This document shows positions 3,376-51,761 of a DNA stretch of 64,000 bases, one piece after another. Source of the DNA: Rhodopseudomonas sp. BAL398 (GTDB taxonomy: Bacteria > Pseudomonadota > Alphaproteobacteria > Rhizobiales > Xanthobacteraceae); the NCBI RefSeq assembly GCF_033001325.1, contig NZ_CP133111.1, positions 2,418,001 through 2,482,000 on the forward strand. The letters are read 5' to 3'. Below the pieces are notes generated by a model. The model made no database searches. It saw nothing but the letters and a program-made list of their open reading frames with translations, and was not told where the DNA came from. Position 1 is the stretch's first letter, and each line of letters opens with the position of its first letter. The position numbers and the translations under genes were made by a program.

Positions 3376-3454
3376 TAAATTTCCCTGCCTAGTATCTCGA
3401 CAGCAGTGGAGCTCAGGCCTATCATAATGTCTAATCTTCGTTTTTGATCATTAT

Positions 3455-3473
3455 CGATAAATGAAATTTATCG
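3455..3473. promoter_or_regulatory. Inverted repeat in the divergent LysR promoter region
   Basis: CGATAAAT-GAA-ATTTATCG: two perfect 8-base arms around a 3-base spacer, in an AT-rich patch between the leftward DUF1445-importer unit and the rightward LysR gene. Its position 18 bases before the LysR start suits an autoregulatory site; LysR-type regulators bind interrupted dyads of this kind. Function is inferred. Confidence 0.55.
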
Positions 3474-5778: not shown

Positions 5779-6690
5779 ATGCATGCCGTCTTTGTCGATG
5801 CCAATGAAGCGCTCGCGGTGATCGTCGAGCAGCAGACCGCGCCCGGCGATACGCCGATCGTGATCCATCACGATCCGGATGTGACGCCGGAGCAATTGCC
5901 GGAGGTGCTGGCCGGCGCCGCCATAGCGATCATCGACCATACTTATCTGCCGACCGACATCGCGCGGCAATGCGCCGGGCTAAAACATGTGGTGTTCCTC
6001 GGCACCGGCGCGCGCAGCTACATGAATCCGGAGGAACTCGCCGAGCTCGGCATCGAGGTTCACCTGATCCGCGGCTATGGCGACACCGCCGTCGCCGAAG
6101 CCAGCATCGCGCTGATGTGGGCGGCGGCGCGCAACCTCGCGGTGATGGACCGCGAGATGCGCGCGGGCAACTGGATCCGCGAGGACGGCATGCAGCTCAC
6201 CGGCAAGACGCTGGGGCTGATCGGGTTCGGCGGCATCGGTGCCGAAGTGGCGCGGATCGCCCATGGCGGCGGCATGAAGGTGCTGGCCTGGAACCGGACG
6301 CCCCGACAATGCGACGGCGTCAGCTTCGTCGATCTCGACACCCTGCTGGCGCGCAGCGATGTGGTCTCGCTGCACCTGCTGCTCGATGACGACACCCGCG
6401 GCTTCCTGTCGGCCGCGCGGATCGCCGCGATGCGGCCCGGCGCGATCCTGATCAACACCGCGCGCGGCGCGCTGGTCGACGAGGCGGCGATGATCGCGGC
6501 GCTGCAATCCGGTCATCTGCGCCATGCCGGCCTCGACGTGTTCGACATCGAGCCGCTGCCGAAGGATCATCCGCTGATCACGCTGCCCAATGTGACGCTG
6601 TCGGCGCATTCGGCGTTCCGCACCCCGGAAGCCAGCGAGAACCTGATCGCCGCGGCAATGGCACATTGCCGACGGATCGCGGCGGCGTAA
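5779..6690 (+). CDS. D-isomer-specific 2-hydroxyacid dehydrogenase (NAD-binding)
   Basis: A 303-residue oxidoreductase interconverting a 2-keto acid and a D-2-hydroxy acid. The NAD-binding Rossmann motif is GKTLGLIGFGGIGAEVARIA (about residues 140-160). Catalytic residues of the family are visible: Arg in NTARGALVDEAAM, Glu in DVFDIEPLPKDHP, and His in TLSAHSAFRTPE. It follows the amidohydrolase by 9 bases. The pairing suggests catabolism of an amino-acid-like compound via a keto/hydroxy acid, but the substrate is not identified. Confidence 0.9.
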   Translation: MHAVFVDANEALAVIVEQQTAPGDTPIVIHHDPDVTPEQLPEVLAGAAIAIIDHTYLPTDIARQCAGLKHVVFLGTGARSYMNPEELAELGIEVHLIRGYGDTAVAEASIALMWAAARNLAVMDREMRAGNWIREDGMQLTGKTLGLIGFGGIGAEVARIAHGGGMKVLAWNRTPRQCDGVSFVDLDTLLARSDVVSLHLLLDDDTRGFLSAARIAAMRPGAILINTARGALVDEAAMIAALQSGHLRHAGLDVFDIEPLPKDHPLITLPNVTLSAHSAFRTPEASENLIAAAMAHCRRIAAA

Positions 6691-8186: not shown

Positions 8187-9434
8187 ATGATAGCAGCATT
8201 CCCCCGTTCTTCATGGTCCTTGCGGGCTTTCGTGGCCGCGACCGCAATCGGATTTGGCGCCTCCTCGGCGCTGGCGGCTGACCCCATCAAGATTGGCGTG
8301 ATCGCCGAAGCGCAGGCGATCGCGGGCGCGTCGATCCCGCAGGCGGCGCAGATGGCGGCCGACGAGATCAACGCCAAGGGCGGCGTCGATGGCCGCAAGA
8401 TCGAAATCGTCACCTACGACAATCACTCCTCCTCGGCGGATTCGGTTCGCGCCTTCCAGCGCGCGGTCAACGAGGACAAGGTCCACGCGGTGATCGCCAG
8501 CTATATCAGCGAAGTGGTGCTGGCGCTGATGCCGTGGGCATCGCGGCTGAAAACCCCGTTCATCACCCCGGGCGCAGCCTCCAACGAGATCACCAAGGCG
8601 ATCCACAAGGACTACGAGAAGAACAAATACACCTTTCACGGCTATCTGACCTCCGGCGAACTCGCCACCTCGGTCTGCGACGCCGCCAAGGATCTGCTGG
8701 TCGACGGCAAGCACATGAAGTCCTCGGTGATCATGAGCGAGGATGCCGCCTGGACCAAGCCGCTCGATGTCGGCTACCAGGAATGCCTGCCCAAGATCGG
8801 CCTGAAGGTGCTCGACCACATCCGGTTCTCGCCGGACACCACCGACTTCACCCCGATCTTCAACAAGATCGAAGGCGCCAAGCCCGACGTGATCATCACC
8901 GGCATTTCGCATGTCGGCGTGCAGCCCACCGTGCAGTGGAAGAACCAGCAGGTTCCGATCCCGATGCTCGGGATCTCGTCACAGGCCACCAACTCGACCT
9001 TCGGCAAGGACACCAACGACGCCTCCGACGGCGTGCTGTATCAGGGCGTCTCCGGTCCGGGCGTCGCGGTGACGCCGAAGTCGGTGCCGTTCGCCGAGGG
9101 TTTCAAGACCAAATTCGGCAACTATCCGTCCTATGCCGGATACACCTCGTATGACGAGGTCTATTACATCGCCGACGCCGTCAAGCGCGCCGGCTCGACC
9201 GACGCCGACAAGCTGGTCGCGGCGCTGGAAAAGACCGATTGGGAGGGCACCATCGGCCGCATCCAGTTCTACGGCAAGGACGACGAGTTCACCCACGGCC
9301 TGAAATACGGCAAGGGATTGATCACCGGCCTGATGCTGCAATGGCAGGACGGCAAGCAGGTCAGCGTCTGGCCGCCGGAAGTCGCCAAGGCCAAGATCAA
9401 GTTCCCGGCCTTCATCAAGGTGACCTCGAACTAA
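8187..9434 (+). CDS. ABC transporter substrate-binding protein, branched-chain amino acid type
   Basis: A 415-residue periplasmic binding protein, first gene of the second Liv-type importer. The signal peptide runs about residues 1-31, ending in an Ala-rich SSALAA site before DPIKIGVIAEAQA. The Peripla_BP_6 pattern AAQMAADEINAKGGVDGRKI follows. GGGAGAGGA lies just ahead of the ATG. A palindromic repeat (9492-9608) separates it from the permease genes. Sequence similarity to the binding protein at 1255-2499 is low, so ligands probably differ; ligand unknown. Confidence 0.9.
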   Translation: MIAAFPRSSWSLRAFVAATAIGFGASSALAADPIKIGVIAEAQAIAGASIPQAAQMAADEINAKGGVDGRKIEIVTYDNHSSSADSVRAFQRAVNEDKVHAVIASYISEVVLALMPWASRLKTPFITPGAASNEITKAIHKDYEKNKYTFHGYLTSGELATSVCDAAKDLLVDGKHMKSSVIMSEDAAWTKPLDVGYQECLPKIGLKVLDHIRFSPDTTDFTPIFNKIEGAKPDVIITGISHVGVQPTVQWKNQQVPIPMLGISSQATNSTFGKDTNDASDGVLYQGVSGPGVAVTPKSVPFAEGFKTKFGNYPSYAGYTSYDEVYYIADAVKRAGSTDADKLVAALEKTDWEGTIGRIQFYGKDDEFTHGLKYGKGLITGLMLQWQDGKQVSVWPPEVAKAKIKFPAFIKVTSN

Positions 9435-10532: not shown

Positions 10533-11456
10533 ATGTCGATGTTTAAAACCCGGCTGTTCTGGATCGCGCTGGCGATCGTCGTGATCGCCTCGACGCTGCC
10601 GCTCTACGTCTCCGGATACATTCTCGGCCTGCTCACCGTGGCCTATTATTTCGGCGTGTTCGCGATGTCGTGGGACCTTTTGTTCGGCTTTGCCGGCGAG
10701 GTCAATTTCGGCCCGACCTTCCTGATTGGAACCGGCGCCTACGCCGCCGGCATCATCAACAACCGCTACGGCCTGTCGCCGTATTACTGCATTTTCATCG
10801 GCGCGATGGTGTCCGTGGTGGCGGGCTTCATTCTGGCGCTGCCGGCGCTGCGGGTGCGCGGCCCCTATTTCGGGCTGACCACGCTGGTCGCGGTGCTGAT
10901 GCTGCAGAATTTCATCGTGGTGTTCGCCGACCTCACCGGCGGCGAGATCGGCCTCACCATCCCGGACGTGATCACCATCAATGCCAGCGCCAATTACTGG
11001 ATCGCGCTGGGCTTCATGTCGATCAGCGCCGCGGTGCTGTACGGGCTGTCGCAATCGCCGATCGGCCTGGTGCTGCAGGCCTCCGGACAGGACCCGGTGC
11101 AGGCCGGCGCGCTCGGCTTCAACATCGTCAAGCACAAGCTGTTCGCCTTCATCGTCAGCGCGTTCTTCTCCGGCCTCGCCGGCGCGATGCTGGTGTTCTA
11201 TTTCGGCACCGCCTCGGTCGGCACCGTGGTCGACGTCGCGGTCGGCGTCCAGGTCATCGTCGCGGCGGTGCTCGGCGGGCGGCGCACCGTGCTGGGCGCA
11301 GCGCTCGGCGCGATCTTCCTGATCGTCGCCGGCGAATTCCTGCGGCCGACCGGCGAATTGGCCACCTTCATCGTCTCGGCGGTCGCGTTGCTCGTCGTGC
11401 TGTTCTTCCCCGGCGGTTTCCTCGGAGCGGCCATGTCGCGTGAGGCCCGCAGCTGA
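10533..11456 (+). CDS. livM: Branched-chain-type ABC transporter permease LivM
   Basis: A 307-residue inner-membrane permease. The family motif AMSWDLLFGFAGEVNFGPT and the motif LPALRVRGPYFGLTTLVAV are present. The ATG at 10533, 2 bases after the livH stop, was taken as start because the protein then begins MSMFKTRLFW just before the first membrane helix. Its stop overlaps the start of the fused ATPase gene (TGATG). Confidence 0.92.
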   Translation: MSMFKTRLFWIALAIVVIASTLPLYVSGYILGLLTVAYYFGVFAMSWDLLFGFAGEVNFGPTFLIGTGAYAAGIINNRYGLSPYYCIFIGAMVSVVAGFILALPALRVRGPYFGLTTLVAVLMLQNFIVVFADLTGGEIGLTIPDVITINASANYWIALGFMSISAAVLYGLSQSPIGLVLQASGQDPVQAGALGFNIVKHKLFAFIVSAFFSGLAGAMLVFYFGTASVGTVVDVAVGVQVIVAAVLGGRRTVLGAALGAIFLIVAGEFLRPTGELATFIVSAVALLVVLFFPGGFLGAAMSREARS

Positions 11457-12937
11457 TGGATGCCACCTCGAACCTCCCTCCCGTTCTGGAAGTCAACGGC
11501 CTGACTAAACGCTTCGGCGGCCTTACCGCGGTCAAGAATCTCAGCTTCGAGCTGCGCGCCGGCGAGATCTTCGGACTGATCGGCCCGAACGGCTCCGGCA
11601 AATCCACCGCGATGAAATCGATCATGGGCATCGAGCGCCCGACCTCGGGCGACGTCGTGTTCCAGGGCGAGAACGTCGCCGGCCTGCCGGCGCACAAGAT
11701 CGCCCGCAAGGGTTTCGGCATGGTGTTCCAGCATTCGCGGCCGCTGAACCGGCAGACCGTGCTGGAGAACATCATGGTGGCGCTGCTGCCAGACAGCCTG
11801 CTGATGCTGTTCGCCGACAAGGCGCTGACCGAACGCGCTGAATGGATCGCCGAGCGCGTCGGGCTCGCCGCGGTGATGCACCGCAAGCCGCCGACCCTGC
11901 CCTTCGCCGATCTGCGCCGCATGGAGCTCGCCAAGGCGATCGCCCGCGATCCCAAGGTGGTGCTGGTCGACGAGCCCTTCGCCGGGCTGACGCTGGCCGA
12001 GGTCGGGATCTTCTCCGAACTGATCAGCAGCTTTCGCGACGAAGGCAAGGCGGTTCTGCTGGTCGACCACAACGTCAAGAGCGTCGCGGCTTTGGTCGAT
12101 CGGGTGCTGGCGATGTATCTCGGCGAGGAGATCTGCACCGGGCGCGCCGACGAGGTGATGCGCAACGAAACGGTGCGCCGGGTCTATCTCGGCGGCGCGA
12201 TCGAAACTTCGGCGCGGCCGGAAACCAGCTTCGCCGACAAGGTGCCGCTGCTGCAGGTCGAGAATCTCAGCGTCTATTACGGCAAGGCCCAGGCGCTGGA
12301 CGATGTCTCGATCCATGTCCACCAGGGCGAATTCGTCTCCGTCGTCGGCCTGAACGGCGCCGGCAAGACTACGCTGTTCAACGCCATTTCGGGCTTCCTG
12401 CCCTATAGCGGCGAGATCCTGCGCGGCGGCGAAAGCCTACGCGGCATCAGCCCGGCGAAGATCGCCCGCCGCGGCCTGGTGCAATGTCCGGAATCGCGCG
12501 AGCTGTTCGGCGAGATGAGCGTGCGGGAAAATCTCGATCTCGGCGGCCACCATCTCAGCGACGCGGCCCGACCCAAGCAGATCGAATGGCTGTTCGAACT
12601 GTTTCCGATCCTGCGCGAACGCCAGGGCCAGATGGCGCAGACCCTGAGCGGCGGCGAGCAGCAGATGCTGGCGATCGGCCGCGCGCTGATGATGCAGCCC
12701 AAAATCCTGATCCTCGACGAGCCGACGCTCGGGCTCGCGCCCGTCATCCTCGAGCAATTGTCGAAGGCGCTGGAGAAGCTGCGGCAGACCTCCGACATCA
12801 CCGTGCTGCTCGGCGAGCAGAACGTCACCTTCGCGCTGCCCCATGCCGACCGGGTCTATGTGCTGGAGCACGCCCGCATCGTCTGGGAAGGCGATCCCGC
12901 GCGGTTTGCCGCCGAAGCCGGCGAAGGCTATTTGTAA
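11456..12937 (+). CDS. Fused LivG-LivF ATP-binding protein (two ABC domains in one chain)
   Basis: A 493-residue protein carrying both ATPases of the importer in a single chain, where they are usually two proteins of about 250 residues. Domain 1 (residues 10-250) resembles LivG: Walker A GPNGSGKST at 43-51 and Walker B VVLVDEP at 168-174. Its signature region reads PFADLRRMEL (149-158) in place of the usual LSYGQQRRLE, so the LSGGQ-type motif is degenerate. Domain 2 (residues 265-493) resembles LivF: Walker A GLNGAGKTT at 298-306, a canonical LSGGEQQ signature and Walker B ILILDEP. One nucleotide site of the transporter may therefore be impaired, an inference. It overlaps livM and closes the importer operon. 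Confidence 0.92.
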   Translation: MDATSNLPPVLEVNGLTKRFGGLTAVKNLSFELRAGEIFGLIGPNGSGKSTAMKSIMGIERPTSGDVVFQGENVAGLPAHKIARKGFGMVFQHSRPLNRQTVLENIMVALLPDSLLMLFADKALTERAEWIAERVGLAAVMHRKPPTLPFADLRRMELAKAIARDPKVVLVDEPFAGLTLAEVGIFSELISSFRDEGKAVLLVDHNVKSVAALVDRVLAMYLGEEICTGRADEVMRNETVRRVYLGGAIETSARPETSFADKVPLLQVENLSVYYGKAQALDDVSIHVHQGEFVSVVGLNGAGKTTLFNAISGFLPYSGEILRGGESLRGISPAKIARRGLVQCPESRELFGEMSVRENLDLGGHHLSDAARPKQIEWLFELFPILRERQGQMAQTLSGGEQQMLAIGRALMMQPKILILDEPTLGLAPVILEQLSKALEKLRQTSDITVLLGEQNVTFALPHADRVYVLEHARIVWEGDPARFAAEAGEGYL

Positions 12938-49059: not shown

Positions 49060-49452
49060 TCAGCCCTTGGCGTCGCAGGCCCAGGCGCGGATCACGCATT
49101 CCTTGCCGCCGAATTCGTAGCACTTCTTGGTCGCGGCATTGAGCGAACTGGAGATCTTCGGCCTCACCGCATAGCCATGGGCGCCGCAGGGATTGGTCAT
49201 GTCGATGGCCAAGGCCGCGCAGGCGCGCTTCATGGTGAGCATCGCGCAATCGCCCCTGCACTGCTTTTGCGCCTCGGAGATCGCGGCGGCCTCGACCTGG
49301 TAGTCGAACGCCTGGCCATAGGCGCCGCATTTGCCGATCGCGAAGGCGCCAGCGGCATGCAACGGCGTCGCTATCAATGTGGTGATCGACAAGGCCATGA
49401 TCGTGGCAACGACAAACGCCGCGCAACGGCGCGAAGCCAGCAAAATCGTCAA
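49060..49452 (-). CDS. DUF4189 domain-containing secreted Cys-rich protein
   Basis: A 130-residue exported protein. A signal peptide covers about residues 1-34 (ending ATPLHAA); the mature domain is DUF4189: two tandem, similar units with CGAYGQAFDYQVEAAAISEA...CRGDCAML...CAALAIDMTNPCG and AATKKCYEFGGKECVIRAWA. The seven cysteines of the mature part probably form disulfides, and some may cross-link the two halves. Function of the family is unknown. It is divergent from the bradavidin-like gene. Confidence 0.8.
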   Translation of the reverse strand: MTILLASRRCAAFVVATIMALSITTLIATPLHAAGAFAIGKCGAYGQAFDYQVEAAAISEAQKQCRGDCAMLTMKRACAALAIDMTNPCGAHGYAVRPKISSSLNAATKKCYEFGGKECVIRAWACDAKG

Positions 49453-49555: not shown

Positions 49556-49584
49556 TTGTATTTTTGGCGCGACTAATTTATAAG
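49556..49584 (+). promoter_or_regulatory. Predicted sigma-70-type promoter of the bradavidin-like gene
   Basis: TTGTAT (49556-49561), a 17-base spacer, then TATAAG (49579-49584), 34 bases before the start codon in an AT-rich patch of an otherwise GC-rich region. Confidence 0.5.
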
Positions 49585-49617
49585 TAGTTTCCATCCAACC
49601 GTCGAATGGAGTTGGCA

Positions 49618-50118
49618 ATGCGACCGATCATCAGGACATTTTTGGGAATTCTGGCGTCGGCATGTATCTGGCTGACGCTCTCCGTCGCGGCTCAGGCGCA
49701 GGCGATCTGGACCTGGACCAATCAATATGGCTCGACTCTCGCCGTCACCAGCTTCAACCAGAACACCGGCGCCATCGCCGGCACCTACACCAACAACGCA
49801 GCCAACAGCTGCGACTCAGGCACGGCCCAGCCGATGACAGGCTGGCTCGCATTGGGCAGCACCGGCACGGCGATCAGCTTTTCGGTCAATTTTGCCGGTT
49901 GCAGCTCGACCACGGTCTGGACCGGCCAATTGAAGAACGACGCCGGATTCCAGGGGCTGTGGCTGCTGTCGCTGGCCGAGCCGGTGGCCTGGAACGGGAT
50001 CAGCGCCGGGGCCGACACCTTCACCTATGGCAGCGGCGACAAAACCAAGCTGATGGCGAAGGACGCCGCGCCGACCGCGCCCAGCGAGAAGCTGTCGAAC
50101 ACCACAGACCGCAAGTAG
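49618..50118 (+). CDS. Avidin-family biotin-binding protein, bradavidin-like
   Basis: A 166-residue secreted protein of the avidin/streptavidin family, high-affinity biotin binders. A signal peptide (residues 1-27, AAQA cleavage) precedes QAIWTWTNQYGSTLAVTSF, the first strands, then TGAIAGTYTNNAANSCDSG; WTGQLKNDAGFQGLWLLSLA carries biotin-contacting Trp101/Trp115, and Trp76 and Trp125 are also conserved. Cys65 and Cys95 can form an intra-monomer disulfide, as in bradavidin. From memory the sequence follows bradavidin of Bradyrhizobium diazoefficiens almost throughout. The C-terminal tail PSEKLSNTTDRK carries the SEKLSNT segment that in bradavidin folds into the biotin pocket as an intrinsic ligand. 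GGAG 6 bases before 49618 favours this start over 49606. Role in nature is unproven. Confidence 0.9.
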   Translation: MRPIIRTFLGILASACIWLTLSVAAQAQAIWTWTNQYGSTLAVTSFNQNTGAIAGTYTNNAANSCDSGTAQPMTGWLALGSTGTAISFSVNFAGCSSTTVWTGQLKNDAGFQGLWLLSLAEPVAWNGISAGADTFTYGSGDKTKLMAKDAAPTAPSEKLSNTTDRK

Positions 50119-50159: not shown

Positions 50160-51761
50160 TCAGCCGCGCTGAGCCTGTTCCAGCGCCTGCGGGGTGTCGA
50201 TGTCGAGAAAGGCGCCGCGTCCCTCGACCGGCACCTCGGCGACCGCCTCGCTGTGCTTGGCGATCAGATGCCGCGCGCCGATGTCGCCGTCGAGCGTCAT
50301 CAGTTCGGCGAAGAACCGCCGCGACCACAACACCGGATTGCCGCGGCGGCCGTCGCTGACCGGCACCGCGATCAGGCTGCCGCGATCCGGCGCGAAGGCC
50401 GCGATCAGCCGGTCGAGCAGTTCGCTATCGATCAGCGGCATGTCGCCCAGGCACACCACCGCGCCATCGGCGCTCGCCGGCACCGCGGCGATCCCGGCCT
50501 TCACCGAGCTCGCCAGGCCCTCGGCAAAATCCGGATTGTGCACGACCCGCACTTTCAACCCGTGCAGCGCCGCTTCGACTTTGTCGGCTTGATGCCCGGT
50601 GACGACGATGACGCTGGAGGCCTTCGACGCCAGCACCCGCTCGGCGACGATCCGCACCAGTGCCTTGCCGTTGAGTTCAGCCAGCAGCTTGTTCGGCCCG
50701 CCCATCCGGGTCGAGCGACCGGCGGCCAGAATGATCGCCGCGACGTCGCGGTTGCCGTCCGCGACCGGCAGGCGCGGCTGCGGCCGCGTGACGATTTCCA
50801 TCAACAACCCACCGACCCCCAAGCCGGTGATATCCTGGCGCGTCACCTCGAGGCCGGCGAGCAGCCGCATCAACACCCAGTCGAAGCCGTTTTCCACCGG
50901 CGAGCGGGCGCAGCCCGGCGCGCCCAGCACCGGCACGCCGGACGCGCTGCCGATCAGCAGCAAATTTCCGGGATCGACCGGCATGCCGAAATGCGCGATG
51001 GCGCCGCCGATGCCCTCGATCGCCGCCGGAATCACGTCGCGGCGGTCGGCGATCGCCGAGGCGCCGAACACGATGACGAGCTCGGCGCCGAGCCCGATCA
51101 ACTCCTCGATCGCCGCCGCCAGCGCGGCCTGGTCATGCGCCACGCGGCGCTCGGCGATGATCGCCGCACCCGCCGGCGCCAGCCGCTCCGCGGTCACTCG
51201 CAGCGTCTTCTCGATCACCTTCGGCGCCAGCCCGGGCAGTTGCGTCGACACCACGCCGACGCGGCTGATCACGAATGGCGCGATGCGCAGCGCGCCGCCG
51301 GCGGCCGCCGCGACGGCAGCGTCACGCAGCGTGCCGGCAACGCCGAACGGAATGATCTTTACGGTGGCGATCATCTCGCCCGCGACCACCGGCTTGAACG
51401 CCGGCAGCGTCGCAAAGGTAATGGATTCGTCGACGCCATTGATGCGGTCGACAATCGCGCGCTCGATCACCAGCACGCCGGCCTGCGCGGCGAACAGATT
51501 GGCGCGGCCAGTGAAAGCGCGCTCGACATCGACGCCGTCGCCCGCGACCGCGCCGGCGACGTCCGCCGCCGCAACGTCCTCGGAGACATCGCCGGTTTCG
51601 AGCTGCACCACCACAATCTGGTCGACGCCGGCGGCCGCCAGCGCGTCGACTTCGGCGGGCCCAATCGTGGTGCCCTTCTTCAGCAGCAGCGATCCCTGCC
51701 GCAGCGTATGCACGGTGACGCCGCCGATCGCATCCGCCGGAGCCACCGGGCCGAACTTCAC
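50160..51761 (-). CDS. Molybdopterin-binding / nucleotidyltransferase fusion protein (MobA/MocA-like)
   Basis: A 533-residue two-domain protein for molybdenum cofactor maturation. The N-terminal ~330 residues resemble a molybdopterin-binding MoeA/CinA-type module (LVIVFGASAIADRRDVIPAA, GMPVDPGNLLLIGSASGVPV). From residue about 340 a nucleotidyltransferase module follows with LAAGRSTRMGGPNKLLAELN (346-365), the MobA/MocA motif, and GDMPLIDSELLDRLI. Probably adds CMP to the cofactor for a molybdenum hydroxylase. It overlaps the XdhC-like gene by 4 bases and ends the cluster. Confidence 0.87.
   Translation of the reverse strand: MKFGPVAPADAIGGVTVHTLRQGSLLLKKGTTIGPAEVDALAAAGVDQIVVVQLETGDVSEDVAAADVAGAVAGDGVDVERAFTGRANLFAAQAGVLVIERAIVDRINGVDESITFATLPAFKPVVAGEMIATVKIIPFGVAGTLRDAAVAAAAGGALRIAPFVISRVGVVSTQLPGLAPKVIEKTLRVTAERLAPAGAAIIAERRVAHDQAALAAAIEELIGLGAELVIVFGASAIADRRDVIPAAIEGIGGAIAHFGMPVDPGNLLLIGSASGVPVLGAPGCARSPVENGFDWVLMRLLAGLEVTRQDITGLGVGGLLMEIVTRPQPRLPVADGNRDVAAIILAAGRSTRMGGPNKLLAELNGKALVRIVAERVLASKASSVIVVTGHQADKVEAALHGLKVRVVHNPDFAEGLASSVKAGIAAVPASADGAVVCLGDMPLIDSELLDRLIAAFAPDRGSLIAVPVSDGRRGNPVLWSRRFFAELMTLDGDIGARHLIAKHSEAVAEVPVEGRGAFLDIDTPQALEQAQRG

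Follow-up and report, generated by a model that had tools for sequence, protein, structure and literature searches.

A bradavidin I orthologue of Rhodopseudomonas sp. BAL398 with a strongly conserved C-terminal Brad-tag

The avidin gene and its domain layout

The window analysed here is a stretch of 64,000 nucleotides from Rhodopseudomonas sp. BAL398 (NZ_CP133111.1, positions 2,418,001 to 2,482,000), and it encodes an avidin of 166 residues that is the only avidin copy found in this genome (Table 1). The open reading frame runs from an ATG at 49618 to a stop codon at 50116–50118, with GGAG a few bases 5' of the ATG; this start is in register with the starts of its relatives, and a longer form beginning at the ATG at 49606 is less likely. 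The product matches the Pfam Avidin family (PF01382) at 77.5 bits against a curated cut-off of 24, and its best match among solved structures is bradavidin (2y32, E 6.4e-61), followed by core-bradavidin (4bbo). With the position of the gene at the bradavidin I locus, these matches bear out the bradavidin-type avidin proposed in a preliminary description of this DNA. The N-terminus aligns with the 25-residue signal peptide of bradavidin (PMC5398887) and forms a hydrophobic helix at residues 5–17 in the structure model; by this predicted signal peptide the protein is exported. The C-terminus reads APSEKLSNTTDRK.

A putative promoter, TTGTAT and TATAAG with a spacer of 17 nucleotides, precedes the gene and is similar to elements in the aligned upstream regions of orthologues at the same locus; a consensus promoter scan upstream of the avidin scored no element, this one included. 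Looser versions are also present 5' of avidin copies at other loci, and the element may travel together with the avidin gene. The BioR operator TTATNNATAA is absent upstream of the avidin, where the best candidate carries two mismatches. A perfect BioR-like palindrome, TTATCGATAA, lies at 3451–3460 of the window, distant from the avidin.

Table 1. Features of the avidin locus, in window coordinates.
Feature	Position	Strand	Evidence and remarks
DUF4189 protein, syntenic marker	49060..49452	-	PF13827; conserved position
Putative promoter TTGTAT, 17-nt spacer, TATAAG	49556..49584	+	Aligned upstream regions; inferred
Avidin (bradavidin I orthologue) CDS, 166 aa	49618..50118	+	PF01382 77.5 bits; 2y32 E 6.4e-61; bradavidin I locus
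Signal peptide, residues 1-27, predicted cut AAQA/QAIWTW	49618..49698	+	Cut site inferred
Eight-stranded avidin barrel, residues 28-142, with every named pocket residue	49699..50043	+	Conservation table; model vs 4bbo
Cys65 (= bradavidin Cys39), half of the L3,4-loop disulfide	49810..49812	+	Conservation table
Cys95 (= bradavidin Cys69), second half of the L3,4-loop disulfide	49900..49902	+	Conservation table
Variable linker, residues 143-156, 14 residues as in bradavidin	50044..50085	+	pN/pS 0.81
Brad-tag equivalent SEKLSNTT, residues 156-163; EKLSNT 157-162 nearly invariant	50083..50106	+	pN/pS 0.026, pS 0.595
Thr163 (= bradavidin Lys137), sole unusual tail residue	50104..50106	+	36 Lys, 2 Arg, 1 Thr among 39
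MoeA/MocA-like protein, first gene of a CO-dehydrogenase-type maturation cluster, syntenic marker	50160..51761	-	PF12804

A conserved locus and a single tailed clade

The gene order at the locus is DUF4189, avidin, MoeA/MocA, XdhC, CoxE, CoxD, CoxM and CoxG. The same arrangement is found in bradavidin's own genome, where the bradavidin I locus was recognised by a protein matching 2y32 over the aligned stretch, in the other clade A copies examined and in Rhodopseudomonas palustris XCP. The window avidin gene and that of bradavidin I thus share their chromosomal site, which makes them positional orthologues. Bradavidin Tyr90, at the centre of the tetramer, is replaced by Leu116, and rhodavidin and bradavidin A2 likewise have Leu at this position; the protein thus lies outside the Tyr90 subgroup (clade A) and is an orthologue by locus nonetheless.

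A tree rebuilt on the barrel alone, with the tail columns excluded, places the tailed proteins in one clade with support of 100/99, and the nearest tailless relatives, from two other genera, fall outside it. A bias introduced by the tail columns is ruled out by the support retained on the barrel. A single gain of the tail is therefore the simplest reading of these sequences. The window avidin falls outside both main Bradyrhizobium groups on this tree, and the avidin copies of clade B are at genomic places other than the bradavidin I locus. One avidin match, of clade B, was found in the plasmid collection, in Bradyrhizobium quebecense (NZ_CP088024.1); there the gene adjoins IS66 genes (11044–12474 of the excerpt) on a conjugative plasmid that also carries a type IV secretion cluster.

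In 24 relatives without an avidin the MoeA/MocA gene is present, mostly with DUF4189 close behind, and no avidin remnant was found beside it, leaving a clean empty site. The avidin is patchy among relatives and frequently degraded, and several copies elsewhere are broken. The conserved locus, the empty sites and the broken copies together indicate that the gene is probably old at this site yet dispensable.

Biotin pocket, disulfide and fold

The window avidin is approximately 76% identical to mature bradavidin I. In the alignment W5, W75, W89, W99, C39 and C69 of bradavidin are all retained, confirming the earlier statement that the tryptophans and cysteines of bacterial avidins are kept. For the residues that line the bradavidin pocket and embrace the tail we used the list in PMC3344845, and every named residue is identical in the conservation table; N9, Y11, S13, Y31, N33–D40, F66, S71, T73, W75, W89, L91, W99, D107 and the C39/C69 pair are retained (bradavidin numbering), and the loss of biotin contacts that had been raised as a possibility is not seen. 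The majority of these residues are equally retained in three tailless relatives, which indicates that the pocket is intact, while binding of the tail is not proven by the pocket itself. High-affinity binding of biotin is a further hallmark of the avidin family.

Cys65 and Cys95, the equivalents of the Cys39–Cys69 pair, are both present and a disulfide is predicted between them. The barrel of a single-chain model superimposes on 4bbo with a TM of 0.90 of the target at 80% identity. Residues 149–166 have pLDDT values below 50 in this model and the tail is disordered; the pocket that receives it would be on another subunit.

The tail is under strong purifying selection

Conservation of the tail was assessed over 39 distinct intact tailed proteins, the window protein among them, all from Nitrobacteraceae. 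The motif EKL(S/T)(N/G)T follows a variable linker at one and the same position in all 39; Glu131, Lys132, Leu133 and Thr136 are identical throughout, and Ser134 and Asn135 each deviate once, in R. palustris XCP. The linker of 14–17 residues that precedes the motif is the most variable portion of these sequences. The ratio pN/pS is 0.026 for EKLSNT, compared with 0.186 for the barrel, 0.589 for the signal peptide and 0.806 for the linker. Synonymous divergence is alike in the tail (0.595) and the barrel (0.558), so the constraint acts on the protein, and a DNA-level constraint is ruled out as the source of the conservation. A thinned set of nine sequences below 85% identity gave mean pairwise differences of 0.07 for the tail, 0.20 for the barrel and 0.68 for the linker; such pairwise averages comprise non-independent events; they document a strong contrast and do not amount to a test statistic. 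Compared with stretches of six residues from the barrel, the tail is constrained as strongly as the best-conserved fifth.

The window tail, SEKLSNTT, is identical to the Brad-tag, SEKLSNTK, at seven of eight residues and is, on this alignment, homologous to it; the bradavidin-like SEKLSNT core noted in the preliminary description is a real element whose amino-acid sequence is maintained by strong purifying selection. The Brad-tag tails of rhodavidin and several Bradyrhizobium avidins have been reported before (PMC5398887). The strength of the selection was beyond the reach of structural papers with a handful of sequences, and it is new here, as are the single tailed clade, the conservation of the locus and the auxotrophy predicted below.

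A search of 397 genomes from the order and 385 from the class found no bradavidin-type tail outside Nitrobacteraceae; three weak matches outside the family, when read out, have C-termini without such a tail. Within the family, bradavidin-like avidins of another genus (three loci) end in HAH directly after the barrel. In Bradyrhizobium altum (5923–6462 of the excerpt) and at a second locus a linker frameshift removes the tail, either as a natural loss or as an assembly error; the barrel of the B. altum protein is left intact. Tailed orthologues, tailless relatives and a frame-shifted tail provide a natural contrast set for asking why a bacterium plugs its own avidin.

Biotin metabolism of the host

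The genome that contains the window encodes the biotin synthase BioB (404.6 bits; bioB at 8402–9352 of the excerpt, contig C1 about 2018401). Its neighbour on the opposite strand is an NMT1-type ABC transporter, which could import a biotin precursor. No bioD was detected in this genome by a search that exceeded the cut-off in six of ten genomes. Likewise no true bioA exceeded the cut-off here, and the best candidates are better explained as members of other aminotransferase families. The presence of bioB without detectable bioD or true bioA predicts a host that requires biotin, and it might finish biotin from dethiobiotin.

This gene content fits the capture of scarce biotin by the avidin, and the predicted inability to make biotin de novo fits the sole available genetic result, that a rhizobial avidin conserves biotin. 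The sister species is also without detectable bioD and has no avidin; auxotrophy does not, then, require an avidin, and the link between the two is suggestive only.

Proposed role of the Brad-tag

In bradavidin the tail of one subunit occupies the pocket of a neighbouring subunit (PMC3344845, PMC5398887). The Brad-tag peptide has an affinity of approximately 25 µM for bradavidin, and the tail slows the association of ligand without an important effect on the dissociation of biotin (PMC3344845); bulky biotin conjugates also bind more weakly in its presence, an effect cited in the source as unpublished (PMC3344845, PMC5398887). The homology of the tail, the length of the linker and the conserved contacts make the same mechanism likely in the window avidin. 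The exported protein adopts the barrel fold and, by homology, would form a tetramer in which the SEKLSNT tail of each subunit would sit in the biotin pocket of its neighbour. There it would act as an intrinsic ligand of weak, micromolar affinity, and its Glu-Lys-Leu would occupy the biotin site. Free biotin would push the tail out of the pocket, and the tail would mainly delay the arrival of ligand and disfavour bulky biotinylated ligands, with biotin release nearly unchanged, as measured for bradavidin. The physiological use would most likely be the capture and retention of free biotin by a host that has biotin synthase and apparently lacks the preceding enzymes. We hold this account as a whole, of an exported bradavidin I orthologue with a self-plugging tail that captures and retains free biotin, with considerable confidence.

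The tail might instead be conserved for another purpose, for instance as a site that a protease or a second exported protein recognises, with occupancy of the pocket secondary. Selection on the tail that matches the best-kept fifth of the barrel contrasts with a weak affinity of 25 µM and a small effect on biotin release (PMC3344845), and this is what speaks for such a purpose; against this, the three residues that insert deepest are invariant in 39 of 39 proteins, as pocket binding predicts, and the loci of clade A and clade B have no neighbouring gene in common in the stretches compared, by which a tail-linked partner gene is ruled out. We consider another purpose improbable. A different question is raised by the end of the tail, TDRK, which the preliminary description had singled out as different and as a possible cause of altered self-occupancy. 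Proteins of the bradavidin I group terminate in EKLSNT[K/R]K, and those of clade B, the bradavidin A2 type, which make up about half of the relatives, in EKLSNTK[N/D/T/L/S/K]RK. Endings in DRK or NRK are thus common, and TTDRK departs from the common clade pattern at bradavidin position 137 alone, where the 39 proteins have 36 Lys, 2 Arg and a single Thr, that of the window protein. Were insertion weakened by K137T and the DRK end, self-occupancy would be lower and biotin association faster, as in core-bradavidin. The threonine is unique among the 39 and occupies the final position of the tag by the definition of PMC3344845; however, it follows the pocket-filling residues Glu131-Lys132-Leu133, which insert deepest and are identical here, as are S134, N135, T136 and all contact residues, the linker is as long as that of bradavidin, members of the clade commonly end in xRK, and the tail of R. 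palustris XCP (EKLTGT) varies more. With the same residues filling the biotin site as in bradavidin, no large shift in self-occupancy is expected. Weakened insertion is therefore unlikely in our estimate, a modest change in self-occupancy is possible, and the only unusual feature of the end is Thr at position 137. The window avidin is an unexceptional member of its clade, a bradavidin I orthologue whose Brad-tag looks functional.

The role of these avidins, previously described as unknown, is now partly addressed by a rhizavidin mutant of Rhizobium etli, whose growth fell off more quickly on subculture without biotin and was restored by complementation (PMC8914248); this evidence, from one strain, points to biotin conservation. 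The avidin could alternatively serve competition or defence, withholding biotin from other organisms instead of conserving it. The signal peptide, the defence functions proposed for avidins of other organisms and a survey that found an enrichment of defence terms in the vicinity of avidin genes (PMC8033661) would all suit such a role, whereas the R. etli mutant, the sole genetic test of a rhizobial avidin found in the literature, points to conservation, and the neighbours at this locus are regulatory, transport and CO-dehydrogenase-type genes with no defence or toxin gene among them. We judge a defensive role to be rather unlikely, and retain capture and retention of free biotin as the preferred function. 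A more tentative extension is that the Brad-tag is a selected gate, gained once in Nitrobacteraceae, that would tune which forms of biotin are admitted and would act here in a salvage pathway with bioB and without bioD or bioA; Lys137Thr may tune it further.

Comparison with known avidins

Bradavidin I of the soybean root-nodule bacterium Bradyrhizobium diazoefficiens (2Y32, 4BBO) resembles the window avidin in its pocket, disulfide, tail core, linker length and chromosomal neighbours, and differs in the end of its tail (TKK rather than TTDRK), in Tyr90 in place of leucine and in the sequence of its linker. Rhodavidin of R. palustris and the homologue of strain XCP share the type of tail and Leu at position 90 (PMC5398887); the XCP protein is encoded at the same locus as in the window and differs by its tail, GSEKLTGTKKK, and a longer linker. 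The bradavidin A2 type (Bradyrhizobium sp. Ai1a-2, clade B) has the same EKLSNT core, an xRK end and Leu90, but is found at other genomic places, mostly has Gly before EKL and has a longer linker. Streptavidin, streptavidin C1 and hoefavidin also place a C-terminal extension in the biotin site (PMC7924230, PMC3344845, PMC5398887), with tail sequences that differ from the Brad-tag; in streptavidin and streptavidin C1, unlike bradavidin, the tail binds its own subunit.
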